A stretch of 33,500 bases of DNA from Verrucomicrobiaceae bacterium (GTDB lineage Bacteria; Verrucomicrobiota; Verrucomicrobiia; Verrucomicrobiales; Verrucomicrobiaceae): positions 1 to 33,500 of the forward strand of contig JAJTDU010000002.1 in assembly GCA_021298725.1 (NCBI GenBank), written 5' to 3'. Below, in pieces: positions 6,523 through 28,039 of the stretch. The notes beneath the pieces are model-generated. The model ran no database searches. It saw only the letters and a list, made by a program, of their open reading frames with translations, and was not told where the DNA came from. The first letter of the stretch is position 1. Each line of letters opens with the position of its first letter. Position numbers and translations under genes: made by a program.

Positions 6523-6760
6523 ATGAACAGCGCTTCTTTTGAATCCATCCTCCGCTCACCCACTTTGGTGGAGAAGGTTTGTCAGCAGTTAGCCGCGATG
6601 CTGAGAGTTGACCCTGGGCATGAGGCAAAATTACCGGCAGAGCGGGATTTTGACCGCGATTCGTGATCGCCAGAGTGAAGCGGCAAGAAGGGCGATGGAG
6701 AAGCACCTGCTCCGCGCCAGCGAGGACCTTGGCTTTTCGACACAAGACATCTCTGAATAA
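6523..6760 (+). pseudogene. Decayed GntR/FCD-family transcriptional regulator with internal deletion
   Basis: The frame from the ATG at 6523 encodes the start of a GntR winged-helix domain (LVEKVCQQLAAMLR, then LPAERD) and stops at 6664-6666 after 47 codons. From about 6648 a different frame continues to the stop at 6758-6760 and reads like the C-terminal end of an FCD ligand-binding domain: ILTAIRDRQSEAARRAMEKHL, close to the usual IxxAIRxRDxxAAxxAMxxHL. The two ends therefore seem to come from one FadR-like gene whose central part, probably some 500-600 bases by comparison with a typical 220-240 residue protein, was deleted with a frameshift at the junction. It lies directly before the first DUF1501 gene, where a pathway regulator would be expected. 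Confidence 0.65.
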
Positions 6761-6773
6761 ATCTTCCACTTCT

Positions 6774-8060
6774 ATGAACACATTACACACCATGTCCCGT
6801 CGTCATCTGCTCCGCGTGGGAGTGGGCAGTTGCCTAAGCCTGTCTTTGGGCCGGTATCTCGAATTGCAGGCAGCCGAGAGTCCGGCAGCTCCCGTCGCCA
6901 AGGCAAAATCGGTGATTCACATCTTTCTTGGGGGTGGCCTGGGGCAGCATGAGTCGTGGGACCCAAAGCCGGAGGCAGCGGCGGAGTATCGCGGGGAGTT
7001 CGGGGCGGTGGGGACGAAGGTGCCGGGGATGCAGCTTTGCGAGTTGCTGAAAAAGACCGCAGGCGTGGCCGACAAGCTGACGCTGCTGCGCGGTGTGTGG
7101 CACACGGAATCGGCGCATGAACGCGGGCAGATGACGATGCTCACAGGCTGGCAGCCGAGTCCGGCGGTGATGTATCCGAGCATGGGAAGCATCGTGTCGC
7201 ATGAGCTGGGGGCGCGGAAAAATCTCCCGCCTTTTGTGACCATCCCGTCCACGCCGGGCGCGGCGGGCACGGGGTATTTGAGCCCGACGTTCGGCGCGTT
7301 CAGCGTCGGCGGTGACCCAAGTGCGCCGGGCTTTACGGTGCAGGATTTGGCGTTGCCGCCGGGCGTGGATGCGGCACGGTTCGACACGCGGCGTTCGTTG
7401 AAGGAAGTCGTCGATGCGCATCACTCGCATCTGGCGCGCAGCGGAGCGGTGGAGCCGATGGGCAAGTTTTACCAGAATGCTTACTCGATGATTTCATCTC
7501 CGGCGGCGCGGGAGGCTTTCGATTTGAAGGCGGAGCCAAAGGCAATGCGCGAAAGCTATGGGCAAAATCTGGCAGGTCAGGGGTTGCTGATGGCGCGGCG
7601 GCTGGTAGGCGCGGGCGTGCGGTTTGTGACGGTGTCGTATGGTTCGTGGGACCATCATCAAAATCTGAAGAAGGGCGTAAGCGACCAGTTGCCCCAGTTT
7701 GACCAAGCCTATGCGGCGCTCATTGCGGACCTCGCAGCGAGCGGGTTGCTGGATGAGACGCTGGTAGTGGTATCCACAGATTTTGGCCGCACGCCGAAGA
7801 TGAACAGCGCGGGCGGACGCGACCATTGGGCGAAGTGCTTCAGCGTGGCGCTGGCTGGCGGCGGCGTGAAACGCGGCCTGGCGCATGGCGTGTCGGATGC
7901 GACGGGCGCGGAGCCGATGGAAGGCGCGGTGGCAGCGGAAGACCTTGCGGCGACCATCTTCCACCTCATGGGCATCGCGCCGGAGAAAAAGCTGATGGCG
8001 ATGGGCACGCGGCCGATTGCCATCAACGGCGGCAAGGTGGTGCAGGACATCCTCGCGTAA
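6774..8060 (+). CDS. DUF1501 protein, module 1 (alkaline-phosphatase-like fold, exported)
   Basis: The 428-residue protein belongs to DUF1501, a PVC-group family related to sulfatases and alkaline phosphatases whose reaction is not established. It starts with an SRRHLLRVGVG segment, resembling a twin-arginine export signal. The N-terminal motif GGGLGQHESWDPKPEA at 53-68 is the family signature, but with Q and E where many members have H and D. The C-terminal signature includes TDFGRTPKMN, GGRDHWAKC and SDATGAEP. The ATG at 6774 is chosen over an upstream in-frame ATG at 6663, which lies inside the GntR remnant; ATG 6792 is a close alternative. No good ribosome binding site is present at either. 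It opens a four-gene run: 21 bases separate it from the PPC gene. Confidence 0.88.
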   Translation: MNTLHTMSRRHLLRVGVGSCLSLSLGRYLELQAAESPAAPVAKAKSVIHIFLGGGLGQHESWDPKPEAAAEYRGEFGAVGTKVPGMQLCELLKKTAGVADKLTLLRGVWHTESAHERGQMTMLTGWQPSPAVMYPSMGSIVSHELGARKNLPPFVTIPSTPGAAGTGYLSPTFGAFSVGGDPSAPGFTVQDLALPPGVDAARFDTRRSLKEVVDAHHSHLARSGAVEPMGKFYQNAYSMISSPAAREAFDLKAEPKAMRESYGQNLAGQGLLMARRLVGAGVRFVTVSYGSWDHHQNLKKGVSDQLPQFDQAYAALIADLAASGLLDETLVVVSTDFGRTPKMNSAGGRDHWAKCFSVALAGGGVKRGLAHGVSDATGAEPMEGAVAAEDLAATIFHLMGIAPEKKLMAMGTRPIAINGGKVVQDILA

Positions 8061-8081
8061 CTCCCAACCCCTTCCGTTTGC

Positions 8082-10271
8082 TTGAATCGTTGCCTCATTC
8101 CACTTCTCATCCTCGTCGCAGCCGCATCTGGAGCTGAGACGGGCACGCCTATTTTGCTCGGCATCGAGCCGCCGTGTGCGCAGGTAGGCACGCGGCAGGA
8201 GGTGGTGTTACGTGGGGTGCGCTTGAGCGACATCGAGGAGGTGATGTGCCGCGAGGCCAGCGTGCGCGTGCAGCGCATCGGTGAAAAGAAAGTGCTGCCC
8301 GGCGACGGCAAGACGCCAGAGAAGGATGAGGTGCGCGTGGAGCTGGAGTTTGCGGCGGATGTGCCGGTGGGAAATGTGGCGCTGCATGTGCGCACGCGCA
8401 GCGGCGTTTCCAATCCGCGCACGCTGCATGTGAACCGCCTGCCCATCGTCGCGGAGACAACGGCGACAGCAAAACGCGAGACGGCGCAGCTCGTCCCGCT
8501 GGACCGCACGGTGTGGGGACACATCATCCGCGCGGAGACGGACTGGTATGCCGTGGACCTCGCGAAAGGACAGCGGTGCAGCCTGGAGGTGCTGGCGTAT
8601 CGCATCTCGCCGACCGACCTCGATGCGATGGTGCAAGTGTGGGGGCCGGACGGGCGGCTATTTCAGGAGCAGGACACGTCGCAGCTCTACTATCACGACC
8701 CCGCGTGCAGCTTCATCGCGCCGCAGGCCGGGCGTTACACCATCGCGCTGCGCGACTCGCTCAATGGCGCTCATCAAAGCGACGCACGCTATGGCATGGC
8801 CAGCGAATGCGTTTATGTGATGCACGTCGGCGATTACCCGCAGGCAACCAGCGTCTTTCCGCTCGGCGGCACCACCGGGCAATCCATTGAGGTGGAAATG
8901 CAGGGCGATGTGAGCGGCGTCATCCGGCAAACAGTGAAGCTGCCCGCGCGGCCCACGTTCGACTTCGCGCCGATGAGCCGGGCCTACTATCCGGGCTGGA
9001 TTTTCGACAAGCCGGACATCGTGCTCCCGCATGATGGCCACAGCCTAGGCACCGGGCCGCTCTTCATCATGGCGAGTCCGCAGCCAAGCCTCCGCGAGGC
9101 CGCAGAGCATCGCACGCGGGAGACAGCGCAGGTGCTGCCGCAACCGCCTTTCGCCGTCGAGGGCCGCATTGAAAAAGCGGATGTGGACGACTGGTATCAT
9201 TTCCCCTTGGCGAAGGGCAAAACCTGGCGCGTCGATGTCTTCGCACGTCGTCTGCGTTCGCCGATGGATCCGAAGCTCACGCTCTATCCCGCCGACAAAA
9301 ACGCAGCACCGCAAGAGAACGATGACCGCTCGCGCTACGACATGGATTCCACGCTCATCGTCAAAGGCACGGGCGAGGAAGTCAGCGTGCGTGTCGCCGA
9401 CACACGCGGTGAAGGCGGCAGCGACTTCAGTTATCGGCTCGTGGTGGAGGAAGCGGTGCCGCAGGTGAACCTGACGACCGCTTCGGTGGAAGTGATGACG
9501 CTCCTGCCGCTCTTCAAAACTGGTCACACCATCAGCGTTCCGCGCGGAGGTCGCGGCTTGTTGCTTTTGGAAAAGCAGGGCGATGAAACCGTGCCGCCGG
9601 GACCGCTGGACGTCCGCATCAGCGGCTTGCCCGCCGGTGTGAAGGCGGAGGTGGCCAAACTGCCGCTGGCGAGCGGTCGCTACCCCGTCGTGCTCAGTGC
9701 CGAGGCCGATGCGACGCTCGCGGGCAGCTTTGCCAAACCCTCCGGCAAGGCTCCGGCGAGCAACGGCACAGACGTGCCCTTCGAGCAACGGCTCGGCATG
9801 GTTTACAGCCATCCCGCACAGACCCCGTGGCACACGGAGCGGTTCCCATCGGTGCCAGTCGCGGTAGTCGAGGCGCTGCCGTTTGCCATAGGCCTCGCGC
9901 CCATTTCCGATGGCGTTCGGGCAGGCAAAAAAGTGTCGCTAAAGCTCACCGTGACCCGCACGCCAGGCGCAGCGCCGCTGCCTTTGACCGCCATGTTTCC
10001 CGCACTGCCGCCGGGCGTGGTGCATGGCACGCTGGAGATTCCCGCTGACGCGACCGAGGCCGCCTTCGACCTCGAAATCCCCGCCGCCTGCCCGCCGGGC
10101 GCATGGCCGCTCGCCGTCGTCGTGTGTGACTCGGATGCCGCCCATCTGCACGACGGCAAGTGGCCCTACTATCACTCAAACAACCAGAACGAGGCACTCG
10201 CGGTGAAAGGCCACCACTGGACCTGCGCCCCACTGACTTACCTGCGCGTGCTGCCCGCCGCGAAGAAATAA
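8082..10271 (+). CDS. Exported PPC-domain protein, module 1
   Basis: The 729-residue protein has a signal peptide (hydrophobic residues 5-17, cleavage likely near SGA-ET) and no enzymatic motif I can name. Residues 22-118 look like an IPT/TIG-type beta-sandwich. Two bacterial pre-peptidase C-terminal (PPC) beta domains follow at about 142-235 and 360-456, the second with the typical DVDDWYHFPLAKGKTW pattern. The remainder looks like Ig-type beta-sandwich. Such proteins accompany DUF1501 and DUF1549/1553 genes in this phylum and probably bind carbohydrate or partner proteins in the periplasm or at the surface (inference). The start is TTG at 8082, because no ATG or GTG would retain the signal peptide. 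It is separated by 10 bases from the next gene, indicating an operon. Confidence 0.82.
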   Translation: MNRCLIPLLILVAAASGAETGTPILLGIEPPCAQVGTRQEVVLRGVRLSDIEEVMCREASVRVQRIGEKKVLPGDGKTPEKDEVRVELEFAADVPVGNVALHVRTRSGVSNPRTLHVNRLPIVAETTATAKRETAQLVPLDRTVWGHIIRAETDWYAVDLAKGQRCSLEVLAYRISPTDLDAMVQVWGPDGRLFQEQDTSQLYYHDPACSFIAPQAGRYTIALRDSLNGAHQSDARYGMASECVYVMHVGDYPQATSVFPLGGTTGQSIEVEMQGDVSGVIRQTVKLPARPTFDFAPMSRAYYPGWIFDKPDIVLPHDGHSLGTGPLFIMASPQPSLREAAEHRTRETAQVLPQPPFAVEGRIEKADVDDWYHFPLAKGKTWRVDVFARRLRSPMDPKLTLYPADKNAAPQENDDRSRYDMDSTLIVKGTGEEVSVRVADTRGEGGSDFSYRLVVEEAVPQVNLTTASVEVMTLLPLFKTGHTISVPRGGRGLLLLEKQGDETVPPGPLDVRISGLPAGVKAEVAKLPLASGRYPVVLSAEADATLAGSFAKPSGKAPASNGTDVPFEQRLGMVYSHPAQTPWHTERFPSVPVAVVEALPFAIGLAPISDGVRAGKKVSLKLTVTRTPGAAPLPLTAMFPALPPGVVHGTLEIPADATEAAFDLEIPAACPPGAWPLAVVVCDSDAAHLHDGKWPYYHSNNQNEALAVKGHHWTCAPLTYLRVLPAAKK

Positions 10272-10281
10272 CGTTCCTACC

Positions 10282-12714
10282 ATGACAGCCCACGCTCTCA
10301 TCATTCGGTCACTCCTCCTGCTTAGCGCATTCGCGCTGACACACGCCACATCAGCCTCCGAGTTGCGCATCTTTCCCGAGCACATCGACATTCATCCGCT
10401 CTCCAGCAGCCAGCGTGTGGTGGTCACGCTCACCGATGCACGCGGCCTGACCAGCGATGTCACCGCTGAGGCAAAGGTGATTTTGGAAAATGCCAGTCTC
10501 GTCCGCTGGCAGGCGGGCACGCTCACGCCGCTGGCCTCGGGCAGCACGCGCCTCGTGGTAAAGCACGTGGGACTCAGCGCCACGGCGGACGTGAAGGTCA
10601 CGCGCGGTTTGCAGGCCGCTGCGCCGTCGTTTCAAAATGAAGTCGTGCCCGTGCTGATGCGCTACGGATGCACGGCGGGCGGTTGCCATGGTGCGACGCG
10701 GGGCAAAGATGGCTTTCGCCTCTCGCTCTTTGGCTATGACCCGGATGCCGACCACTTCCGGCTCACGCGCGAGTTTGTGAATCGCCGCGTCAACGTCGCC
10801 CTGCCGGAGGATAGCCTTTTGCTCAAGAAAGCTGCGGGCACCGTGCCGCATGGCGGTGGGAAAAAACTCACGCCTGACGATGCGAACTTCGCGCTGCTGC
10901 GCGACTGGATCGCCGCCGGTGCGCCGAAAGGCCCGGCGGACGAGGCGCACCTGAGCAGCGTGAGCGTGTATCCCGCCGACCTCACGCTCGATGCCGCCGG
11001 GCAGAGCCACCGCCTCGTGGTCATGGGCCGCTTCACCGATGGCTCCCAGCGCGATGTCACCCACCTCAGCATTTTGGAAAGTTCCGACGACTCCATCGCC
11101 AGCGTCACGCGCGAAGGCCTCGTCACCAGCCATCGGCGCGGTGAGGTCTTCATCTCCGTGCGCCTGCCCGCCTTCATCAGCGGCGTGCGCGTGGATGTCG
11201 TGCCCTGCCAGCAGCCACCCGCCGCGCTCGCGCAGGGTTGGAACTTCATCGACGAAGCCGTCTATGCCCGCCTCTCGAAGCTGCGCATGACACCCGCCGA
11301 AGTGTGCAGCGACGACGACTTCGTGCGCCGCGTCTTCATCGACACCATCGGCCTGCTGCCCACCCTCGCGGAATACGAGCAGTTTCAAAACGACACGCGC
11401 AGCGACAAACGCGCCCGGCTCGTGGACAGCCTGCTCGCGCGGCCCGAGTTCACCGACCTCTGGACCATGAAATGGGGCGAGCGACTCCAGGCCCGCAGCA
11501 TCGTCTCCGCCTCCGCCTCGCATCAAAAAGCCACCGTGCGCTACACCGCGTGGCTGCATCGACAGATCGAAAATGAGACACCGATGAACGAAGTCATTCA
11601 CCGGCTCATCGCCGCGAAAGGCACCTGGATTGAAAACCCCGAGACCAATTTCTACCGCGAGCGAGACCCGAAGCTGCTCATGGAAAACATGGCGCAGCTC
11701 TTCCTCGGCGCACGCATCCAGTGCGCCCAGTGCCACAACCATCCCTTCGACCGCTGGACCCAGAACGACTACTACGGCATGGTCGCCTTCTTCGCCCGCA
11801 CGCAGAAGAAAAGCTGCGAGGACATGATGGATGTGCTCGTCTATGAAGCACCCGCTGGCGAGACCAGTCACCCCGTCACGCAGAAGCAAGTCGCGCCGAA
11901 ATTCCTCGGTGGCGCACTCGTCACCACCGCCGACCGCGAACGCCGCACCGTGCTCGCCGACTGGCTCACCGCGCCGGACAACCGCCTCGTCGCCCGCAAC
12001 CTCGCCAACATCTACTGGCAGCACTTTTTCGGCACCGGCATCATCGACCCCGTGGACGACGCGCGCGTCTCGAACCCGCCCTCAAACCCCGAACTGCTCG
12101 ATGCCCTCGCCGCGCGCCTCGTCGCGGTCGATTTCAAACCCCGCACCTTCATCCGCGACATCCTGCTCTCTCGCACCTACCAGCACTCATCGGTGGAAAA
12201 CGAAACCAACCGCGCCGACACGCGCAACTTCTCCCACTCGTATCCGCGCCGCATCCTCGCCGAAGTGCTCTGGGACTGCCTCACGCAGGCCACCGGTTAC
12301 TTCGACGACGGCTTCTTCTTCGAGCGCCCCGGCACCCGCGCCGTGCAAATCGGCGACGGCGGCATCACCACCACCTTCCTCTCCACCTTCGGCCGCTCGA
12401 AACGCGAGACGCCCTGCACCTGCGAGGTCAAATCGCAGCCCACCCTTTCGCAAGCGCTCAACCTCATCAACGGCACCAGCATCACCCACTGCATCGAGCG
12501 CGGCAAAAACCTTCCCGCTTGGACCACGCAGCAAAAAGACCCGCAGCAAGTCATCCGCAGCCTCTACCTCACCAGCCTCTCTCACCTGCCATCCAAGACC
12601 GAAACCGCCGCCTTCACCGAAGTCCTCCGCACTCACAAAGGCGGCCCGAAAATCGCCCTGCAGGACATCTTCTGGGCCGTGCTGAACTCGAACGAATTCA
12701 TCTTCAATCATTAA
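10282..12714 (+). CDS. DUF1549/DUF1553 exported protein with Ig-like and haem-motif regions, module 1
   Basis: The 810-residue protein has a signal peptide (residues 1-26). Residues 28-108 look like a bacterial Ig-like (BIG2) domain, which the module 2 homologue lacks. A cytochrome-like domain follows with C130-x4-C135-H136 (CTAGGCH), then a second Ig-like stretch at about 228-310. The DUF1549 domain starts near FIDEAVYARL (residue 321) and contains a canonical haem-type C481-AQ-C484-H485 followed by NHPFDRW. The C-terminal DUF1553 part includes NLANIYWQHFFGTGI and ends in NSNEFIFNH, the usual family terminus. The family is widespread in Planctomycetes and Verrucomicrobia; its role is unknown, with periplasmic redox or polysaccharide breakdown proposed. 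The ATG at 10282 gives a clean signal peptide. It follows the PPC gene by 10 bases. Confidence 0.87.
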   Translation: MTAHALIIRSLLLLSAFALTHATSASELRIFPEHIDIHPLSSSQRVVVTLTDARGLTSDVTAEAKVILENASLVRWQAGTLTPLASGSTRLVVKHVGLSATADVKVTRGLQAAAPSFQNEVVPVLMRYGCTAGGCHGATRGKDGFRLSLFGYDPDADHFRLTREFVNRRVNVALPEDSLLLKKAAGTVPHGGGKKLTPDDANFALLRDWIAAGAPKGPADEAHLSSVSVYPADLTLDAAGQSHRLVVMGRFTDGSQRDVTHLSILESSDDSIASVTREGLVTSHRRGEVFISVRLPAFISGVRVDVVPCQQPPAALAQGWNFIDEAVYARLSKLRMTPAEVCSDDDFVRRVFIDTIGLLPTLAEYEQFQNDTRSDKRARLVDSLLARPEFTDLWTMKWGERLQARSIVSASASHQKATVRYTAWLHRQIENETPMNEVIHRLIAAKGTWIENPETNFYRERDPKLLMENMAQLFLGARIQCAQCHNHPFDRWTQNDYYGMVAFFARTQKKSCEDMMDVLVYEAPAGETSHPVTQKQVAPKFLGGALVTTADRERRTVLADWLTAPDNRLVARNLANIYWQHFFGTGIIDPVDDARVSNPPSNPELLDALAARLVAVDFKPRTFIRDILLSRTYQHSSVENETNRADTRNFSHSYPRRILAEVLWDCLTQATGYFDDGFFFERPGTRAVQIGDGGITTTFLSTFGRSKRETPCTCEVKSQPTLSQALNLINGTSITHCIERGKNLPAWTTQQKDPQQVIRSLYLTSLSHLPSKTETAAFTEVLRTHKGGPKIALQDIFWAVLNSNEFIFNH

Positions 12715-12773
12715 AGTGGCTTCGGCTTTAGCCGAATCTCTGAATCCCAAATGCAGCTAAAGCAGCATCCACT
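12715..12773. repeat. Imperfect palindrome between DUF1553 and WD40 genes
   Basis: The arms 12715-12735 and 12753-12773 are complementary over roughly three quarters of their length, including AGTGG/CCACT at the outer ends and GCTTTAGC-like sequence paired with GCTAAAG in the middle. The left arm also holds a small hairpin of its own, TTCGGC-TTTA-GCCGAA (12721-12736). It begins directly after the stop codon at 12714 and ends 5 bases before the ATG at 12779. It resembles REP-type intergenic palindromes. No T-run follows, so it is not a classic terminator. Confidence 0.6.
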
Positions 12774-12778
12774 CTCGC

Positions 12779-14161
12779 ATGAGCATCGTCACCCGCATCA
12801 TCCTTCTCTCGGTCCTCAGCGCCGCATTCGTGCGCGCCGAGGAGCCGCGCAATTTTGAAGACCACATCCTGCCGCTGCTGCGCGAGCATTGCGCCAATTG
12901 CCATCGCCCTGGCAAGACGCGCGGCGGGCTCGATGTCACCACGATGGAGAAGCTGGAGAAAGGCGGCTCCGCAGGGCCGTCCATCGTCGCCGGAATTGCG
13001 GAAAACAGCCCGCTCTTCCGCGCCATCTCGCACATCGGCGATGAAGAAGCCATGCCGCCCGAGCAGGACAAACTGCCGCCGCAGATCCTCGCGGCGTTCA
13101 AGACCTGGATTGAAAGCGGACTCAAACCCAACGCCACCGGCAAGGCCCGCGAAACCCGCGCCGTGGTGCAGCTCACCGTCGATACCGCCACGCTCGGTGC
13201 GCCGAAGGCCGCGCCCGATTTCATCCGCAGCCTGCCGCCGCTCGCCAACGCACCGAAGCTCGTCCGCGCCCTGCCCGTCATGGCCCTCGCCGCGAATCCG
13301 TGGGCACCCGTCATCGCCGTCGGCGGACATCACGAAACCGTGCTCCACGACCTCACCGACGGCCACCGCATCGGCGCACTGCCTTTTGCCGAAGGCGAAG
13401 TGCGCGTGCTGCGCTTCAGCCGCAACGGCCAGGTGCTCCTCGTCGGCGGCGGAAGCCCCACTGCATCGGGCAAAGTGCAGCTCATCGAACTCAAGACCGG
13501 CAAACTCCTCACCACCGTCGGCGAAGACTTCGATGTCGTCCTCGCCGCCGACCTCAGCCCCGACCAAAGCCTCGTCGCCACCGCCGGACCCGAGAAGCTC
13601 GTGCGCGTCTATCGTGTCGCCGATGGCGCACTCGTCTGGTCAATGAAGAAACACGCGGACTTCATCACCAGTCTTGATTTTTCCCCCGATGGCAAGCAAC
13701 TCGCCAGTGCCGACCGCGCCGGCGGCATCTTCATCAGTGAAGCTGCTACCGGCAAAAACCCGCGTCTCCTCGCTGGCTCCACTGAGGCCGTGAATCAGCT
13801 CACCTGGCGCAGCGATGCACGCTCACTCGCCGCTGCGTGTGGCGATGGCCAGACCCTCCTCTACGATCCCGCCACCGCCCGCCTCGTCGCCAAATGGCCT
13901 GCGCACGAAGGCGGCGTCCTCAGCATCGCCTACAGCCGTGAAGGCCGCCTCCTCACGGGCGGCCACGACGCCACCGCCTGCCTATGGGATGAAACCGGCA
14001 AGCAGATTTCCCAGCTCAAAAACTGCCACACCGCCGCCTTCCGAGTCGCCTTCACCAGCACTCAGCATATCCTCGTCGGCGATTGGTCCGGCACCGTCCG
14101 CGAATGGACGCCCGAGGGCAAAGAACTACGCAGCATCTCCAACCACTCAGCACCCCCTTGA
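12779..14161 (+). CDS. Cytochrome c-like domain plus WD40 propeller protein, module 1
   Basis: The 460-residue protein has a signal peptide (1-20), a planctomycete-type cytochrome domain with haem motif C38-AN-C41-H42 and a possible axial Met at M92 (AMPPEQ), and then a beta-propeller of WD40-like repeats from about residue 165 to the end. Repeat units are visible as LSPDQSLVATAGPEKLVRVY, FSPDGKQLASADRAGG, WRSDARSLAAACGDG and SREGRLLTGGHDAT. It probably faces the periplasm and is haem-bound; electron transfer and complex scaffolding are guesses from the architecture. The ATG at 12779 lies just after a palindrome. A related gene sits at the same place in module 2. Spacing to the next gene is 103 bases. 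Confidence 0.85.
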   Translation: MSIVTRIILLSVLSAAFVRAEEPRNFEDHILPLLREHCANCHRPGKTRGGLDVTTMEKLEKGGSAGPSIVAGIAENSPLFRAISHIGDEEAMPPEQDKLPPQILAAFKTWIESGLKPNATGKARETRAVVQLTVDTATLGAPKAAPDFIRSLPPLANAPKLVRALPVMALAANPWAPVIAVGGHHETVLHDLTDGHRIGALPFAEGEVRVLRFSRNGQVLLVGGGSPTASGKVQLIELKTGKLLTTVGEDFDVVLAADLSPDQSLVATAGPEKLVRVYRVADGALVWSMKKHADFITSLDFSPDGKQLASADRAGGIFISEAATGKNPRLLAGSTEAVNQLTWRSDARSLAAACGDGQTLLYDPATARLVAKWPAHEGGVLSIAYSREGRLLTGGHDATACLWDETGKQISQLKNCHTAAFRVAFTSTQHILVGDWSGTVREWTPEGKELRSISNHSAPP

Positions 14162-14264: not shown

Positions 14265-15629
14265 ATGAAAACATCCACTTCCCCCGGCTGCTCCGGCTTT
14301 CGACCAATGAACTTCCAGCGTCGTGAGGCCATGCGCATTGGTGTTTGCAGTGCGTTGGGGCTTAGCATGGCTGATTTACTCAAACATGAAGCACGGGCCA
14401 TCGTTGAGCCGGGGTTTTTCAAGGAGGGGAAGGCGAAGAGCATCATTCATCTCAATCTGCCGGGCGGGATGTCGCAGCAGGAGTCGTGGGACCCGAAGCC
14501 GGAGGCTCCTTCGGAGTATCGTGGGGCGTTTGGTGTGGCGAAGACGAACACCGGCGAGGTCTTCAGCGATAATTTTGCACGGCTGGCCAAGGTGGCGGAC
14601 AAGCTGACCATCGTGCGCTCAGTCGTGGGCAAGATCCCGGACCACCAGCAGGCGACGTATCATCTCTTCACCGGCTACACGCCGACGACGGTCATCGACT
14701 ACCCACAGATGGGCAGCGTGGTGTCGCATCTGCTCGGATCGCGGAAGGAAATGCCGCCCTATGTGGCGGTCCCGTCGATGGGTGGCTTTGAAGGCGGCAC
14801 CGGCTTCCTCAGTAGCAAATACGGCCCCTTTCAGCTCAACGCTGACCCTGGAGCGAAGGGCGAGTTTCAGGTGCGTGACTTCAGCATTCCTAAAGACATC
14901 TCGATGCAGCAGTTTGAGCGCCGCAAAGCAGCCCGAGACATCGTGGAGTCTCAACTCCGCAAGCTGGATGCCGACATCGACAAGCTGAACACGATGGACG
15001 ACTTCTACAAGAACGCCTACTCGCTGCTGACCTCCGATGCAGCGCGGAAGGCCTTCTCGTTGGCCGATGAAAATGACGCGATGCGTGAACTGTACGGTCG
15101 CGGTTATGAATTGAAGCAAAAGGCACCTGCGGCGGTGGGTGAGCGTTTGTTGCTCGCACGTCGTCTGGTGGAGGCTGGTGTGCGCTTCGTCAGTGTGAAC
15201 TACGGCTCCTGGGACTCGCATGTGGACATCAAAGGCACCTGCACCGAGCACATGCCGGCGCTCGATCACGCGATCTGCGGGCTCATCACCGATCTCGATC
15301 AGCGTGGCATGTTGGATAGCACACTCGTCATGGTCACCACCGAGTTTGGCCGCACGCCGAAGGTGAACACCAGCAATGGCCGCGATCACTGGGCGCGGGT
15401 GTATTCCATGCTGCTCGCCGGTGGCGGCATCACACGTGGACAAATCTACGGGGCCTCCGACGCGACTGCCGCCGAGCCTGCGCGGGACGAAGTGAAGCTC
15501 GAAGACTTCCTCGCCACCGTTTACCACCAGCTCGGCATCGACTCGAACCAGGAACTCTCCGCCTTTGGTGGCACGCGGCCGATTGAGATCGTGAATGGTG
15601 GCAAAGTCGTGAAAGGCATTATCTCGTGA
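14265..15629 (+). CDS. DUF1501 protein, module 2
   Basis: This 454-residue homologue of the 6774-8060 product belongs to DUF1501, an alkaline-phosphatase-like family of unknown reaction. The signature GGMSQQESWDPKPEAPSEYRG lies at about 68-88, again with Q and E in place of the common H and D. Later signatures are TEFGRTPKVN, NGRDHWARV and SDATAAEPA, and the end NGGKVVKGI matches module 1. The start may be the ATG at 14265 or the ATG at 14307 (MNFQRREAMRIG), which looks like the usual short Tat-type beginning of the family; the longer form is listed because both are open and neither has a clear ribosome binding site. It opens module 2, followed after 71 bases by the PPC gene. Confidence 0.87.
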   Translation: MKTSTSPGCSGFRPMNFQRREAMRIGVCSALGLSMADLLKHEARAIVEPGFFKEGKAKSIIHLNLPGGMSQQESWDPKPEAPSEYRGAFGVAKTNTGEVFSDNFARLAKVADKLTIVRSVVGKIPDHQQATYHLFTGYTPTTVIDYPQMGSVVSHLLGSRKEMPPYVAVPSMGGFEGGTGFLSSKYGPFQLNADPGAKGEFQVRDFSIPKDISMQQFERRKAARDIVESQLRKLDADIDKLNTMDDFYKNAYSLLTSDAARKAFSLADENDAMRELYGRGYELKQKAPAAVGERLLLARRLVEAGVRFVSVNYGSWDSHVDIKGTCTEHMPALDHAICGLITDLDQRGMLDSTLVMVTTEFGRTPKVNTSNGRDHWARVYSMLLAGGGITRGQIYGASDATAAEPARDEVKLEDFLATVYHQLGIDSNQELSAFGGTRPIEIVNGGKVVKGIIS

Positions 15630-15649
15630 TCAAAGAGCATCCTCCAGCA

Positions 15650-15736
15650 TGGCAAAGGAATGTTTTGGCAATGGAATAGACCCAATCCAAAAAATCCGTC
15701 ATGCCTTCATTCCCTTGCCATCCCATTCCCTTGCCA
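15650..15736. repeat. Palindromic element A (two-box inverted repeat)
   Basis: The left arm has the boxes TGGCAAAGGAATG (15650-15662) and TGGCAATGGAATA (15666-15678). The right arm has CATTCCCTTGCCA twice (15708-15720 and 15724-15736). Boxes are 3 bases apart on both arms, giving a symmetric 29/29-base structure with a 29-base loop; outer boxes pair at 12 of 13 positions and inner boxes at 11 of 13. It fills the gap between the DUF1501 and PPC genes and runs into the start of the PPC gene. It is one of three copies in module 2. Confidence 0.85.
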
Positions 15737-18142
15737 AAAATAACACACCTCTTCCTCCTCTGCACCTCCGCAGCGCTTGCAGGCCCGATGGTGCATCACA
15801 TTGAGTATGTCACGCCTCGCGCAGGCCAACGTGGCACCACGGTCGAGGTCACGATTGAAGGCTCCTTCATCAAGGAGGCGAAAGAGGCCCTCTTTTATCG
15901 CCCTGGCATCCGCTGTGTGGAGTTGAAGAGCCTCCCATTGCTGCCTGAGCCTCGCAGCACGATTCACGGCGGCTTCATTGAGGGCAACGTGACGGCGAAG
16001 TTCCAAATCGACGCCGATTGTCCGCTTGGGCTGCATCCGTTCAAGCTGCGCACCGCCACGGAGTTGACCACACTCAGCACCTTCGCGGTGACGCGGTTTC
16101 CCATCGTCAAAGAAGCGCAGGAAGACCAAACGGTGCCGATGAACAGCGCCGTGCTCGGTCGCATGGACACGAAGCAAGTCGGCGATGTCGATGTGTATCG
16201 CGTCACGGGTCGCCAAGGCGAGCATCTGTCCGTGGAAGTCGATTCCGTGTGGCTCACGGAGAAGTTTTACGCTGGTTCCGAGTTCGACCTCACCGCACGC
16301 ATTCTCGATGCCAGCGGCAAAGAACTTGCCCGCAACGACGACAGCGCCCTGCATCTGCAAGACCCTGTTTTGAGCACCCTCCTGCCTGCGGATGGCGAAT
16401 ACCGCGTCGAGGTCAAACAGCGCGTCTTCAACTCCGGTGGCAACTGCTACTACATTGCTCACATTGGCTCGAATCATCGTCCGCTGGCCGTGTATCCCGC
16501 TGGTGGCATGAAAGGCGAAAAACTGGCGGCCACGCTGCTTGGCGATGCCGCAGGCGATGAGGCCATGCAAGTCACGCTGCCGGCTCAAACGGGCGATTTT
16601 CATTTCAACGACACGATGCCATCGCCATTGCTGATGCGCGTGAGTGAGTTCCCCAACGTGCTCGAAGCCAAAGACGCCGATGAAACTGCCGTTAGCGCTC
16701 TTCCCGCCGCTTTGAATGGCAAAATCGAAGCCGCAGGCGATGCCGACAGCTTCCGCGTGAAAGCCAAAGCGGGTGATCGTTGGCGTGTGCGTGTGTTTGC
16801 TCGCTCGCTTGGCACGCCACTCGATCCTCGCCTCACGATTCGCCAAGCAGAGGCTGAAACCGATGACATGACCGCTGATGACTCGGCGCTCACGGATCGC
16901 AATCTGTGGGCCATGTCGCGGCAGATTCAGCGGAAGGAACTCATGGACCCGGCAGTGATTTGGGAGCCGAAAACCGATGGCGACTACCTCATCAACATCA
17001 CCGACATGCGTGGCCTCGGCGATCCGACTTCTGTTTATCGCATCGAGGTCGAACCCGTGCGTGATGAGATCAACACCTTCATTCAGGCCCGCGTGATCGA
17101 CATGGTCGAGTGCCCGCGCCTCACCAGCATCGCCGTGCCTCAAGGTGGCCGCTGGACGGTGAATGTGAGCCTCATCGACGCTCCTGGCAGCCGCTACAAA
17201 GGCGAACTCGATCTCGTGGTGAGTGGTTTGCCCGAAGGCGTGCGCATGATCGCTCCGCGAGTGCTTCCCGGTCAGCGTCAGGCCCCCGTGCAGTTCATCG
17301 CCGAGGCTGGCACGAAGCCGCAGACCGCGCTCATCTCCATCACCTGCAAAGCCACTGATGGCACGCCGCTTCTCAGTAGGCCGCAGCAGTCGTTTCCCTT
17401 TCTCGGCCACAGTGGCGGTCATGCGTGGCATTCGTTTGTCGTCCATGACTACGCTTTTGCCGTCACGGAGCCGACGCCCTATCAAATCGATGTCGAGCAG
17501 CCGACGATCCCGCTTTCCCAAAACGGTGAACTCACGCTGCCAGTCAAAATCACGCGCAAACCCGGCTTTGATGAAGCCATCGAGCATCAGTTCGACTGGG
17601 TGCCACCCGGTGTCGAAGGCGAGCCCACGCTCACCATTCCTGCGGGCAAAAACGAAGGCACCCTGCGTCTCAGCGCTAGTCCTTCGGCAGCGCCGGGCAC
17701 CTATCGGCTTGCCATGACTGCTTCTACCACGGGTGGCTCGTATTACCTCGGCGCAGGGCGCATCCGTGCATCGAGTGCGTTCATCGACATCACCATCGCG
17801 CAACCTTACATCGCGCTGAAGAGCAATCCCACCGCCGTGCGTCGCGGCGAAAAGGCGCAGGTCGTGTGGGACGTAGAGCACAAGAAGCCTTTTGAAGGCG
17901 AAGCCGAAGCCACACTGCTCGGTTTGCCGAAAGGCGTGAGCGTCATCGCCAATCCCAAACTCAAATCCGGCGACAAGCAGCTCATCTTCGACATCACCGC
18001 CACCAACGAGGCGCTGCTCGGCCAATACAAAGAGCTGAGCTGCGAGATCACCGTCACCGAACACGGCCAGCAAATCCGCCAACGCACCGGCAAAGGCATC
18101 CTGCGTGTCGATCCGGCGCTGCAACAAGCTCAACTGAAATGA
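15701..18142 (+). CDS. Exported PPC-domain protein, module 2
   Basis: This 813-residue exported protein corresponds to the module 1 PPC protein. A signal peptide is visible (THLFLLCTSAALAG, about 15-28). An IPT/TIG-like beta-sandwich follows at about 34-134, then two PPC-type domains at about 150-255 and 340-455 (GDADSFRVKAKAGDRW), then Ig-like beta-sandwich modules to the C-terminus. No catalytic motif is seen; binding or scaffolding is inferred. The start is uncertain and odd: the ATG at 15701 lies in the loop of palindromic element A, so residues 3-12 are encoded by the element's right arm; a TTG at 15731 inside the last box would give a shorter, more usual signal peptide. The next ATG (15788) would lose the signal. 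A full-length open frame on the opposite strand is a GC-bias shadow. Confidence 0.8.
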   Translation: MPSFPCHPIPLPKITHLFLLCTSAALAGPMVHHIEYVTPRAGQRGTTVEVTIEGSFIKEAKEALFYRPGIRCVELKSLPLLPEPRSTIHGGFIEGNVTAKFQIDADCPLGLHPFKLRTATELTTLSTFAVTRFPIVKEAQEDQTVPMNSAVLGRMDTKQVGDVDVYRVTGRQGEHLSVEVDSVWLTEKFYAGSEFDLTARILDASGKELARNDDSALHLQDPVLSTLLPADGEYRVEVKQRVFNSGGNCYYIAHIGSNHRPLAVYPAGGMKGEKLAATLLGDAAGDEAMQVTLPAQTGDFHFNDTMPSPLLMRVSEFPNVLEAKDADETAVSALPAALNGKIEAAGDADSFRVKAKAGDRWRVRVFARSLGTPLDPRLTIRQAEAETDDMTADDSALTDRNLWAMSRQIQRKELMDPAVIWEPKTDGDYLINITDMRGLGDPTSVYRIEVEPVRDEINTFIQARVIDMVECPRLTSIAVPQGGRWTVNVSLIDAPGSRYKGELDLVVSGLPEGVRMIAPRVLPGQRQAPVQFIAEAGTKPQTALISITCKATDGTPLLSRPQQSFPFLGHSGGHAWHSFVVHDYAFAVTEPTPYQIDVEQPTIPLSQNGELTLPVKITRKPGFDEAIEHQFDWVPPGVEGEPTLTIPAGKNEGTLRLSASPSAAPGTYRLAMTASTTGGSYYLGAGRIRASSAFIDITIAQPYIALKSNPTAVRRGEKAQVVWDVEHKKPFEGEAEATLLGLPKGVSVIANPKLKSGDKQLIFDITATNEALLGQYKELSCEITVTEHGQQIRQRTGKGILRVDPALQQAQLK

Positions 18143-18154
18143 ACTGACCAAAAT

Positions 18155-18229
18155 TGGCAATGGAATGTTATGGCAATGGAATAACTGAATCAGAATCATT
18201 TATTCCCTTGCCAATCCATTCCTTTGCCA
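18155..18229. repeat. Palindromic element B (two-box inverted repeat), left of nuclease gene
   Basis: Left-arm boxes are TGGCAATGGAATG (18155-18167) and TGGCAATGGAATA (18171-18183); right-arm boxes are TATTCCCTTGCCA (18201-18213) and CATTCCTTTGCCA (18217-18229). The box spacing is 3 bases on both sides and the loop is 17 bases. Outer and inner box pairs each match at 12 of 13 positions. It lies between the PPC stop and the nuclease start, ending 19 bases before the ATG at 18249. Confidence 0.88.
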
Positions 18230-18248
18230 AATCAGAACCCTTCATCTC

Positions 18249-19040
18249 ATGCCAATCATCTGTAAAACACCCATCGCCAATCTCACGCGAGACGAGTTTG
18301 TTGTGCGTGATGACCTGATCATGAAATGCGCCTATGCCACGCAGAACAAGCTGGGGCGGCTTTGTGAGGAGCGCGTCTATGAAAATGAGCTGGCAGATCG
18401 TCTGCGTGCTGCTGGCATGAAGAATGTGATGACTCAAGTGCCGATCTTGGTGACCCATGGCCCGTTCGCCAAGGAGTATCGGATCGATCTGGTGGCGGAT
18501 GACGCCGTGTATGAACTCAAGACGGTCGCCCAGTATCTTCGGGTTCACGACACGCAGGTGTTCAATTACGCCATGTGTCTCGGCATTGGGTGTATCAAGC
18601 TCTTGAACTTCCGCGAGACCAAGGTGGATGGCAAACTGCGTATCGTTCCCATCACTCCAGCTAAGCGCCATGCCTGCCGCATCATCACCGAGGATTGGAA
18701 GCCACTTTCATCACGCTGCCAGCTCCTGAAAGACCACCTCACGGCTATCGTGGCTGACTTTGGCGGCTTTCTCGAAGCCAGCCTTTATGAGGAAGCTTTG
18801 TCCAGCCTTCTTTCTGCCCCAGAAACAAGACTCACCGTGAGCAGCAACGGCAACGAGCGCGGCACGCACCCGACTCGCATGCTCTCCGAGCACATCGCGT
18901 TCTATGTTAGCGCCTACACAGACGATATGGATCACCAGCGCCCGCATCTTCAGCGACTTTTTGCCCTACTTCCCTTGAAGGCCATGCACTGGATCAACTT
19001 CAATCATCAAGACATCACTCTGATCACCCTGACTCAATGA
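18249..19040 (+). CDS. GxxExxY-type PD-(D/E)XK nuclease-like protein (PDDEXK_3), with C-terminal extension
   Basis: The first 125 residues match the GxxExxY/PDDEXK_3 family. Visible are LGRLCEERVYENEL at 35-48 (the family LGxGxxExVYExxL, with the second glycine replaced), then RIDLVADDAVYELK with candidate catalytic D80, E89 and K91, then H100 and Q103 in VHDTQ and the LLNF strand at 118-121. The fold is that of restriction-like nucleases, but activity of this family is not proven. Residues 130-263 form an extension I cannot name; most family members are near 120-140 residues. The gene has no counterpart in module 1 and is bracketed by palindromic elements B and C, which suggests insertion into a pre-existing cluster. 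The start at 18249 follows TTCATCTC, a stretch also found before the ATG at 14265. Confidence 0.78.
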   Translation: MPIICKTPIANLTRDEFVVRDDLIMKCAYATQNKLGRLCEERVYENELADRLRAAGMKNVMTQVPILVTHGPFAKEYRIDLVADDAVYELKTVAQYLRVHDTQVFNYAMCLGIGCIKLLNFRETKVDGKLRIVPITPAKRHACRIITEDWKPLSSRCQLLKDHLTAIVADFGGFLEASLYEEALSSLLSAPETRLTVSSNGNERGTHPTRMLSEHIAFYVSAYTDDMDHQRPHLQRLFALLPLKAMHWINFNHQDITLITLTQ

Positions 19041-19045
19041 AGCCT

Positions 19046-19117
19046 TGGCAAGGGAATGAAGTGGCCATGGAATACATCCATTCTGAGCCATTCCCTTGCC
19101 AATCCATTCCCTTGCCA
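19046..19117. repeat. Palindromic element C (two-box inverted repeat), right of nuclease gene
   Basis: Left-arm boxes are TGGCAAGGGAATG (19046-19058) and TGGCCATGGAATA (19062-19074); right-arm boxes are CATTCCCTTGCCA twice (19089-19101 and 19105-19117). The box spacing is again 3 bases and the loop is 14 bases. The outer boxes pair perfectly (13 of 13), the inner at 10 of 13. It starts 5 bases after the nuclease stop and ends 2 bases before the ATG at 19120, so the ribosome binding region of the following gene lies in the stem. Confidence 0.9.
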
Positions 19118-19119
19118 AA

Positions 19120-21312
19120 ATGAGAACCTTTCTTTTAGCCCTCCTGCTTCCATCCATTCTCATCGCCGAGGAAGCTCCCAGCTTCCGCCGCGATGTGATG
19201 CCCATCTTATTTCGCTCAGGTTGCAATCAAGGCACCTGCCATGGCTCGGCTCGTGGGAAGGATGGCTTCATGCTTTCGCTCTTCGGTTATGACGCGAAGG
19301 GCGACTATTACCGCATCACGCAGGAGATGGTGGGCCGCCGGGTGAACCTCGCGGCACCGGAGCAGAGCTTGCTGCTGCTCAAAGCCATCGGCAAAGTGCC
19401 GCACACGGGCGGTGAGTTGTTCAAGCCGGACACGAAGTATTACAAGACGCTGCTCGCCTGGATCCAAGCCGGAGCGCCGGATGACGCGGATGCAGTGCCG
19501 CAGCCGGTGGAGATCACGCTATCGCCAGATCGCATCGAGTTTGAAGGTGGCCATGGCACGCAGAAGACCACGGTGACTGCACGCTACTCCGATGGCTCGA
19601 AGCGCGATGTCACGGACCTCGCGCTCTTTGCCACCAACAACCCGGCCACGGCCAAGATCGACAAAAACGGCATCGTCTCCGCTGCCGGACGCGGCGACAC
19701 GCATGTGTTTGCGCGGTTCAATCGCTTCACCATCGGCTCCGAAGTCATCGTGCTGCCACAGGACAAAAACTACGCGTGGACGAATCCACCCGCGCACAAC
19801 TACATCGACGAGATCGTCCATGATCGGCTGCAAAAGTTGCGCCTGTTGCCCTCCGATGTCTGCGACGATGAAACCTTCATCCGCCGCCTTTACATCGACC
19901 TCACGGGCTCGTTACCGACGACGAAAAGGTATCGCGACTTCATGGCGGACACGTCGAAGGACAAGCGCACGGCCTTGATCGACCACCTGCTGCAAAGCGA
20001 AGGCTTCACCGACCTGTGGACCAATCTCTGGGCCGAGATGCTGCGCGTCAAAGGTGGCGGCTATGCGCCTAGCGCTACCGATGTGAAGGCCGCCGATGTT
20101 TATTATGAGTGGATCCGCGAGCAGATCGCCAAGAACCGGCCGCTGAACGAGTTCGTGGCTGATCAGATCACCGGCACGGGCAGCAACCTCAACAGCGGCC
20201 CCGCGAATCTTTACACCATGCTCGTGCATGATGTGAAAGTGACGCCGAAGAACCTCGCCGCTGATTTCTCGCAGCTTTTCACCGGCGTGCGCATTCAGTG
20301 CGCCGAGTGTCACAACCATCCCTTTGACCGTTGGACCATGGATGACTACTACGGCTGGGTCAGCTTCTTCACGGGCATCCAGCGGAAACTCGGCGTGGAG
20401 CCGCGTGAGTTCTATGTCTTCAACGATCTGTCCGCCGCGCCCGCGCAACATCTCGTCGATGAGCGCCCGATGCTGCCCACGGTGCTCGGCGGTGAAAGCA
20501 GTGTGCCCAAGGGCAAAGATCCGCGCCAAGCGCTCGCCGCATGGCTCACCTCGCCAAAGAACGAGCTTTTCAGCCGCAACCTCGCCAACCGCATCTGGGC
20601 GCACCTCATGGGCCGCGGACTGGTGGAGCCACTGGATGACATGCGAGTGAGCAATCCACCGACGAACGGCCCGCTACTCGATGCCTTGGCCAAACACCTC
20701 GGTGACTCCGGCTTCAACCTGCGCGGCTTCATTCGTGACATCACCACCTCGCGCACCTACCAACTTTCCGCCAAGCCGAACAAGACCAACGCCGACGACA
20801 CGCGTCAATTCTCGCGTTCCCAACTGCGCCGCTTGCGGGCCGATGTGTTGCTTGATGCCATGGTGGAGGCCACCGATGGCCAGCGCGGCTTCGGCTACTT
20901 CCCCAAAGGCACGAAGGCCATCCAGCACTACCCACGCACACCGGGCGACACCACACGCGCCATCACAGGCGATCCGTTCTTTGAAACCTTTGGCCGCGCC
21001 GGTCGTGCCAGCGTCTGCGTGTGCGACACCAAATTCGAGCCCACGCTTTCGCAAACCCTGCACATGGTCGCTGGTGATACCGTGCAGAGCCAGATCGGAG
21101 CCGGACAAGTCATCGAAAAGCATCTCAAAGCCTTCACGCCGCCGGAAACGATCATCGAAGACCTCTACCTCCGCGCCTTGAGCCGCAAACCAAAGCCCGA
21201 GGAGCACAAGGCTCTGCTCGAACTCGTCGGCAGCGACACCAAAGACCGCAAACCTTACCAGGACATCTTCTGGAGTCTGCTCAACTCCACGGAGTTCATC
21301 TTCAATCATTGA
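19120..21312 (+). CDS. DUF1549/DUF1553 exported protein with haem-motif regions, module 2
   Basis: This 730-residue homologue of the 10282-12714 product has a signal peptide at 1-16 ([14 protein letters not shown]). The cytochrome-like domain carries C35-x4-C40-H41 (CNQGTCH), followed by [13 protein letters not shown]. An Ig-like stretch comes next, then DUF1549 from about residue 228 ([11 protein letters not shown]) with C394-AE-C397-H398 and NHPFDRW. DUF1553 fills the C-terminal part, with [15 protein letters not shown] and the terminal NSTEFIFNH. Compared with module 1 it lacks the N-terminal Ig-like domain. The ATG at 19120 is chosen because it gives a clean signal peptide; the upstream in-frame ATG at 19096 lies within palindromic element C. 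Its stop is 2 bases before the next gene's ATG, so the two are coupled. Confidence 0.87.
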
Positions 21313-21314
21313 TC

Positions 21315-22682
21315 ATGCGCTCGCTGCTGCTTTTCCCATTCCTGCTCACTTCAGCGACCGCTGCTGATGCCGTCATCACCTATGATGAGCACATCAAGCC
21401 CATCTTCCGCGAGCATTGCCTCAAATGCCACGGCGAAGACGAGCAGAAGGCCGATCTAAACCTCGCGAACTTCACCGCCGTGCTTAAAGGCGGCAGCGGT
21501 GACAAGGCGGTCATCGCTGGCCGTGCCAGTCAGAGTCTGCTCTTTCAATCCATCACCGCCGAAGACGACGCCGAGCGCATGCCGCCAAAAAAAGCCGCGA
21601 TCCCTGCTCCACAGATCGAACTCATCCGCCAGTGGATCCAAGGCGGCCTGCGCGAATCATCTGCCAGCAAATCCCTCGTCGCCGAGCGCGATACCAGCTT
21701 CAAACCCGCTGCCACACTGAACTTCGACGGCCCACCGCCGATGCCGGAGTCACTGCCCGCCTTCACACCACCGAAGCTCAAGCGCCCGCTGCCTGTCATC
21801 GCGATGGCCGCGAGTCCTCGTGCTCCGTTGATCGCTGTGGCCGGGCATGAGCACGTTCGTTTGCTTGATGCCACCACGCAGAAGGAACTCGGCGCACTCG
21901 CTTTCCCCGAAGGTCAGCCCAACGTCATTCGCTTCAGCCTTGATGGCCGGGTTTTGATGGTCGCAGGCGGCAAACCGGTGCAATCCGGCAGCGTCGTGCT
22001 CTTTGACATCAAAACCGGCAAACGCCTCACCACCCTCGGCGATGAAACCGACGCCGTGCTCGCCGCCGATCTCAGCCCCGATCAACAACTCATCGCCCTC
22101 GGCGGCTCCGGTAAGGTCGTCAAAATCTACAACACCGCCGACGGCAAACTGCGCCACAAGCTCACCAAACACACCGACTGGATCACCGCCCTCGCCTTCA
22201 GCCCGGATGGCAAAAAGCTCGCCTCATCCGATCGCGCCGGTGGCATCCATCTCTGGGACGCGACAGGAGGCGGCATCCTCCTCTCCCTCGCCGAGCACAA
22301 AGCCGCCGTGCGCGCTCTGAGTTGGCGCAGTGACAGCCGCATGCTCGCCAGCGGTGGCGAAGACGGCCTCCTCATCTGGTGGGACGCCAAAGACGGCTGG
22401 CCCGCCGTCACCAACACCAACGCACATCCACCCGTGCGCAGCAGCGGCTACTACGGCAAACTCCCCAACGGCGTCCTCTCCGCCTCCTTTGGCCCCAATG
22501 GGGAACTCCTCACCGCTGGCCGCGACAAACAAGTGCGCCTCTGGAAAGCCGACGGCGGAGCCACCAAATCCTTCGCCATCGAAGCCGCACTGCCGTTACA
22601 GACGAGCATCACCTTCGACGGCAGGGGCTTGTTGGCGGGCGATGAGAGCGGCGCGGTGCGTTTTTGGCCAGCAATCAAGTGA
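21315..22682 (+). CDS. Cytochrome c-like domain plus WD40 propeller protein, module 2
   Basis: The 455-residue protein parallels the 12779-14161 product. It has a signal peptide (1-17), a haem motif C35-LK-C38-H39 with a possible axial Met at M89 (RMPPKK), and a WD40-type propeller over roughly residues 170-455. Clear repeat units are [42 protein letters not shown] and [20 protein letters not shown]. It is probably periplasmic. The ATG at 21315 is preferred; a TTG two codons upstream (21309) would overlap the preceding stop. The 2-base spacing to the DUF1553 gene argues for translational coupling and a physical partnership of the two products. Confidence 0.86.
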
Positions 22683-27945: not shown

Positions 27946-27953
27946 TGACGGCT

Positions 27954-28039
27954 TGTCCCGCACACGCGTGGGTTGCGCAGCACGTTGTCCACGCTTTAGC
28001 GTGTCCCCCTCGACTGTCCCGCACACGCGTGGGTTGCGC
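27954..28039. repeat. 25-base direct repeat pair with internal palindromes
   Basis: A 25-base unit occurs identically at 27954-27978 and 28015-28039 (period 61). Each copy contains the palindrome CACGCGTG. The 36-base spacer contains another hairpin, CACGC-TTTA-GCGTG (27990-28003). It begins 8 bases after the lipoprotein stop and ends 17 bases before the ATG at 28057. The TTTA-loop hairpin resembles the one at 12721-12736. Confidence 0.75.

Follow-up and report, generated by a model that had tools for sequence, protein, structure and literature searches.

A GxxExxY nuclease gene between inverted box arrays, a candidate mobile intergenic element in Verrucomicrobiaceae

In a stretch of 33,500 nucleotides from a Verrucomicrobiaceae bacterium (assembly GCA_021298725.1, contig JAJTDU010000002.1, positions 1 to 33,500; hereafter the window), three palindromes lie at the translation starts of the downstream genes, and two of them enclose a gene for a predicted nuclease. 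Do these palindromes act on the translation of the operon, or are they the ends and offshoots of an element that moves? The features concerned are the following.

14265 to 15629, + strand: DUF1501 gene (domain scan), upstream of element A.
15650 to 15737, no strand: element A, a solo palindrome with boxes at 15650 and 15666 (forward arm) and at 15708 and 15724 (reverse arm), and with ATG 15701 in its loop.
15701 to 18142, + strand: PPC-domain gene (Pfam PF04151), the first 13 codons of which, from ATG 15701 to the signal peptide, cross the right arm of A; TTG 15731 is an alternative start.
18155 to 18229, no strand: element B, the palindrome 5' of the nuclease gene and left end of the proposed nuclease element.
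18249 to 19040, + strand: GxxExxY PD-(D/E)XK nuclease gene, long form, 263 aa (PF13366 and TIGR04256).
19045 to 19118, no strand: element C, the palindrome 3' of the nuclease gene and right end of the proposed nuclease element.
19120 to 21312, + strand: PSCyt2/PSD1 gene, the start of which abuts C (domain scan, run from TTG 19096).

A, B and C share one layout, in which two forward boxes (GGCAAGGGAATG and variants) are followed by a loop and two reverse boxes, at a spacing of 16 nt. Together they hold 12 box matches (at most two mismatches to ATTCCCTTGCCA), and the whole window holds 14 ATTCCCTTGCCA matches versus 2.64 expected, a number reached in 0 of 100 shuffles. The + strand folds of A, B and C gave z values of −5.4, −6.6 and −5.3, respectively, with equal stability in 0 of 200 shuffles; they are genuine palindromes, far beyond chance. 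Neither GTAG nor CTAC occurs in the three elements with about 10 bases of flank on each side. Two more box palindromes were found outside the window in this draft genome, one having 2+2 boxes (C67:349-415) and the other 4+2 (C144:4642-4741). Start codons were read at ATG 15701, TTG 15731, ATG 18249, ATG 19120 and ATG 12779, and the first-pass annotation, which had described A, B and C as touching or containing the starts of the downstream genes, was correct in nearly every detail of position: B ends at 18229, 19 bases before ATG 18249; C ends at 19117/19118, 1–2 bases before ATG 19120; and A holds both candidate starts of the PPC gene, ATG 15701 in the loop and TTG 15731 in the last box.

A fourth palindrome, at 12715–12773, had been grouped with these three. 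The ATG at 12779 is indeed where it had been placed, but the grouping does not stand, the palindrome having no boxes and belonging to a different family. Its fold was significant on the − strand (z −3.0) but not as RNA of the + strand (z −1.6, matched in stability by 17 of 200 shuffles); it contains CGGCTTTAGCCG, a sequence also present in another dispersed repeat within the genus. Copies of a second repeat family, centred on CGGCTAAAGCCGGGACTACA and partly arranged in tandem, lie at window 12715–12773, L098 2744–3485 and L105 3640–3810. Elsewhere in the window, at about 27950–28035, a CACGCTAAAGCGTG palindrome has GCGCAACCCACGCGTGTGCGGGACA-like copies on either side.

The product of the gene between B and C matched only PF13366 (E 4.9e-16; 59.6 bits, cut-off 22) and, scored against TIGR04256, reached 57.3 bits (cut-off 35), so that by curated cut-offs it is assigned on sequence to the GxxExxY/PDDEXK_3 family, for which we know of no assigned function. 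Residues D80, E89 and K91 of the D...ExK motif were invariant in 25 of 25 aligned homologs, and nuclease activity is predicted. Many genomes encode GxxExxY proteins, often several of them, and at least one homolog at E ≤ 1e-20 was present in 29 of 48 genus genomes. An origin of the long protein by internal duplication is only suggested, because the halves match collinearly but not significantly (hhalign E 0.09). A single-sequence structure model was uninformative (mean pLDDT 33.9), the search for a solved-structure relative gave none (one match at E 0.26), and no relatives were found on viral contigs. A scan of ten window genes detected no transposase domain. The operon DUF1501 – PPC – PSCyt2/PSD1 – WD40/PSCyt1 is present in two tandem copies (6663–14161 and 14265–22682), and the nuclease gene and boxes are found only in the second, the gene lying between PPC and PSCyt2.

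Orthologs of this operon differ in whether they carry the element. Fifteen PPC orthologs were found, 14 with readable junctions, the window genome being G000. The nuclease gene and boxes are both present at the locus in 5 of the 14 (G000, G001, G012, G013 and G065) and both missing from 7 (G057, G067, G017, G032, G021, G027 and G030), while the remaining 2 (G002 and G058) have one arm only, the right box pair before PSCyt2. The ATG of PSCyt2/PSD1 follows the boxes at an unchanged position in G065, G001, G012, G013, G002 and G058. The window PPC protein is closest to those of four genomes without the element (94–96% identical), and G065 is distant (84%). Its body follows the sisters, being 90–100% like that of G057 (interior 60-column windows), whereas the tail encoded by the last codons (QQAQLK) and the start region in element A resemble the distant carrier G065. 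Such mosaic flanks may reflect an element-centred gain or loss with co-conversion, a pointer rather than a proof because the exchanged flank is short. At this one comparable locus the flanks of filled and empty orthologs differ for several codons on each side, and neither a target site duplication nor a clean empty site can therefore be defined.

The same comparison bears out the earlier suggestion that the PPC gene owes its present start to A, which displaced the original one: 12 of the 14 orthologs begin MR... a few bases past the DUF1501 stop, and those of the window genome and G065 start in the loop of A. ATG 15701 gives MPSFPCHPIPLPK followed by the signal peptide; the homologous ATG of G065 gives MKSFPGPLISLPK, crossing the right arm of A in an unchanged frame and opening an ORF likewise of 813 aa, and the equivalent of TTG 15731 is lost in G065 (CTA). 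The MR... starts of the 12 orthologs, with the ATG and frame kept in G065, argue that the right arm of A is now probably coding and that ATG 15701 is a likelier start than TTG 15731.

It had further been proposed that the stems, if transcribed, could adjust or couple the translation of operon genes lying downstream, a reading favoured by their position at or over the starts and by ATG 15701 in the loop of A, which is kept in G065 along with a partial stem (−24.1 versus −30.3 kcal/mol). As a general mechanism this found no support in the comparison, since orthologs do not preserve the local stems. The nuclease gene of G001, G012 and G013 has only a left arm upstream and only a right arm downstream, and the folds of these flanks are no more stable than those of shuffled sequences (z −1.2 to +2.3); a box pair nonetheless adjoins the ATG. 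Stems are thus missing or weak at the same junctions in these three genomes and, for B, in G065; 7 of the 14 orthologous operons have no element there; and many copies elsewhere are single arms. We regard translation control as very unlikely. The nearness of the palindromes to gene starts is best read as a consequence of insertion into short gene–gene gaps.

Inverted ends prove to be tied to the GxxExxY family well beyond the window. They were scored by aligning the upstream flank to the reverse complement of the downstream flank (170 to 350 bases, with slight variation among runs) and comparing the score with dinucleotide shuffles, z > 4 being counted; the sample drawn from the homolog list comprised the best-scoring long homologs and 20 short ones. 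The window nuclease gene has terminal inverted repeats with a z of 19.2. Among the best-scoring long homologs tested, inverted arms were present in 48 of 50 in the genus (median z 15.3; one of the 50 without upstream flank) and in 14 of 17 in other genera and families of the order (one unscorable). The short canonical form, at first a negative control, had inverted ends in 15 of the 20 tested in the order and was dropped from that use; likewise, 27 of the 30 loci of short family members returned by a phylum-wide TIGR04256 search had inverted arms. Control genes had them in 8 of 246 cases (at least one of the 8 on a RAYT gene) and neighbour genes in 4 of 84, 3 of which are themselves GxxExxY genes (two contig-edge family matches and one second copy). 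On plasmids of other phyla, inverted ends flanked 3 of the 7 GxxExxY genes read (8 found), those of Bernardetia, Gemmatirosa and Bacteroides finegoldii. The Gemmatirosa plasmid (L347) carries a short GxxExxY gene with full CGCAGAGGA-box palindromes on both sides, a window-like layout in another phylum.

Flanking repeats of RAYT genes are already known, and a RAYT set therefore served as a positive control, in which 23 of 27 genes had flanking inverted repeats. Could a RAYT (Y1) transposase move the palindromes of the window as well, the nuclease gene being incidental? Y1_Tnp genes were found in 16 of 16 genomes searched and, as just noted, have inverted repeats of their own; these repeats, however, are of another kind than the boxes, the box pair occurs in 0 of 30 RAYT loci (96,905 bases), and G033 and G005 have RAYTs but no box pairs. 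RAYT as the mobiliser is hardly credible on these counts and was rejected.

At the 29 genus loci read, flanking box arrays were present nearly throughout; the box varies among homologs, but the two flanks of any one gene share it (ATTCTACTGCC, for instance, in G029 and G030, ATTCTGCTGTC in G031 and G015, and AATCTTTTACC in G008). A plain inverted-end layout, with only a forward arm on the left flank and only a reverse arm on the right, was seen in G001, G012, G013, G064, G019, G060 and G061, and the window genome and most others have a full palindrome on at least one flank of the nuclease gene. We propose that a solo palindrome is what two ends form when they lack the gene between them. Both neighbours were codirectional in 23 of 39 scorable loci (25 more incomplete) according to a crude ORF caller, a count that is noisy because of long antisense ORFs. 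At L170 1421–2242 an ordinary gene (SGNH-hydrolase-like by eye) stands between two solo palindromes, comparable to the PPC gene between A and B.

Boxes and proteins covary. Across 27 loci, the left and right flanks of one gene matched with a mean score of 66.9 versus 24.2 when permuted (maximum 40.3; 0 of 10000), and for pairs less than 60% identical in protein, the similarity of the flanks tracked that of the proteins (rho 0.52; 0 of 2000 permutations). The own flank pair was the best of all at 13 of the 27 loci, and at most of the others a close relative scored higher. Box positions 2 and 7 covary between the arms of 41 palindromes (mismatch 0.06 and 0.02 versus 0.45 each when permuted); a selected central stem mismatch was considered and rejected, the middle-position mismatch of 0.48 lying below the permuted 0.71. 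The box period likewise goes with the form of the protein, being 14–16 nt with the long protein in 41 of 48 cases (outside the genus 9 of 11) and 8–10 nt with the short protein in 12 of 14 and 21 of 27, with a moderate self-match signal per arm (median z 1.2 to 2.8).

The boxes are also dispersed. A general box-pair pattern was found in 34 of 48 genus genomes, with 500 matches in total and none in any of the 48 for a reversed-pattern control; its absence from G003, G019, G056 and G064 fits the fact that the pattern misses AATC-type boxes. Genomes with a long homolog had a median of 12 box pairs (n=29) versus 0 for those without (n=19; P=9.7e-5), yet G010, G058, G066 and G007, with no long homolog, have 5 to 17 matches. 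Solo boxes are nearer to the flank boxes of their own genome (8 genomes with complete lists; an equally good fit in 348 of 40320 label permutations), a modest test in which flank boxes were entered for only some homologs of the 8 genomes. Exact matches to an own flank box range from a clear case in G015 (38 of 50) to a clear miss in G057 (1 of 40), and in G057, G024 and G030 the solo boxes do not match the flank boxes entered. Single box arms amplified with adjoining DNA in tandem units of about 230 bp and 186 bp were seen at L067 4418–4904 and L098 2861–3448. A gene with boxes on either side, and close to its start, would be suited to autoregulation, and the boxes could be operator or protection sites of a defence or host-regulation nuclease, with dispersal secondary; solo palindromes are dispersed, however, with many copies away from the gene and a copy number that varies between species, and we hold this reading to be highly improbable.

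From the inverted ends and their tie to the GxxExxY family, the box–protein covariation, the dispersal and the presence or absence at one orthologous locus, all of which are observed, we favour, with a probability of roughly 0.6, the reading that B, the nuclease gene and C form a small mobile intergenic element, the nuclease of which reads its own end boxes and moves solo palindromes in trans, in the manner proposed for RAYT and REPIN but with an unrelated enzyme. The element would consist of a GxxExxY PD-(D/E)XK nuclease gene between inverted ends, each made of tandem short boxes. The nuclease would recognise the boxes of its own ends and cleave there, on the duplex or on an extruded hairpin, and copying would proceed by strand break and repair. 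Solo palindromes like A, as ends without the gene, would be non-autonomous offshoots moved or copied in trans. Insertion into intergenic gaps would leave the elements touching stop and start codons, and at A the right arm would have become the new beginning of the PPC gene.

The strongest objection to this mobile-nuclease reading comes from S23-like four-helix-bundle (TIGR02436) genes of Verrucomicrobiota (L316–L345), which have inverted arms of short tandem boxes at 23 of 30 loci. To our knowledge this family has no nuclease domain. Such ends thus need no nuclease, which leaves room for an RNA-level or third-party mechanism. The inverted ends might act in RNA as in 23S rRNA intervening sequences (IVSs), RNase III cutting the stems of folded transcripts, the ORF being a passenger or an RNA-binding partner and something else the mobiliser. 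The window palindromes do fold strongly as RNA, and in Coxiella the S23 ORF of an IVS is reported to be bordered by complementary ends that are cut by RNase III, and IVSs are suggested to have once been mobile (PMC4990558). Against this stand the catalytic D, E and K, invariant in all 25 aligned homologs, the change of box spacing between long and short protein forms, the box identity that follows the protein, and the stems that are not locally kept in orthologs. We consider this alternative unlikely.

How does the proposed element compare with known systems? In the REPIN/RAYT system, hairpin-forming inverted doublets are scattered over intergenic regions, and every type goes with a gene that adjoins the same repeat; singlets and tandem arrays also occur (PMC3116915, PMC3733652). 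The window repeats likewise form hairpins, are dispersed and are linked to a gene with the same repeat beside it; in contrast, the linked gene encodes a PD-(D/E)XK nuclease and not a Y1 HUH transposase, the palindromes lack the GTAG tag and their ends are tandem boxes, and the RAYTs present in the genus have different repeats. By analogy, the element is best read as working like REPIN/RAYT, and membership of that system fails on enzyme and tag. With 23S rRNA IVSs it shares a small ORF between complementary ends, but it is intergenic (between PPC and PSCyt2) rather than in rRNA, its ORF is a GxxExxY nuclease rather than an S23 four-helix bundle, and its ends have several boxes each and also occur dispersed as solo palindromes. 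Among MITEs and the insertion sequences from which they derive, a gene-bearing form with inverted ends is found together with short non-autonomous palindromes. Terminal inverted repeats around the window gene together with solo palindromes recall this arrangement, whereas the ten window genes scanned contain no transposase domain; the flanks at the locus, differing for several codons, define no target duplication. PD-(D/E)XK homing endonucleases have the same nuclease fold class, and the mosaic flanks could reflect co-conversion; the window gene, however, is not inside an intron or intein, and we know of no homing system that features repeat ends and solo copies. Within the literature searched, no element of this kind is described, the passages on GxxExxY do not concern repeats and PDDEXK_3 is not mentioned; the sequence strings of common repeats appear there only in work on fish eDNA (by title).

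A broader proposal, which we advance tentatively and at somewhat less than even odds, is that a widespread and hitherto undescribed class of mobile repeats has GxxExxY nucleases as its enzymes, that the cognate ends of these nucleases are tandem short boxes including the CACAGAGGCACAGAG, CACGAAGACACGAAG and ACAGGATTAACAGGATT intergenic types, and that in Verrucomicrobiota a doubling of the protein was accompanied by a widening of the box spacing from about 9 to about 15 nt. If true, the RAYT/REPIN way of living would have arisen twice independently, the second time around a restriction-fold nuclease, and the four-helix-bundle genes, whose ends are alike, would add a third branch. The matching inverted box arrays give the GxxExxY family a testable role and point to a candidate enzyme behind common intergenic repeats so far unexplained, and the family may provide natural protein–DNA pairs of many specificities for study. 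Such insertions would also remodel gene starts, as at the PPC gene.
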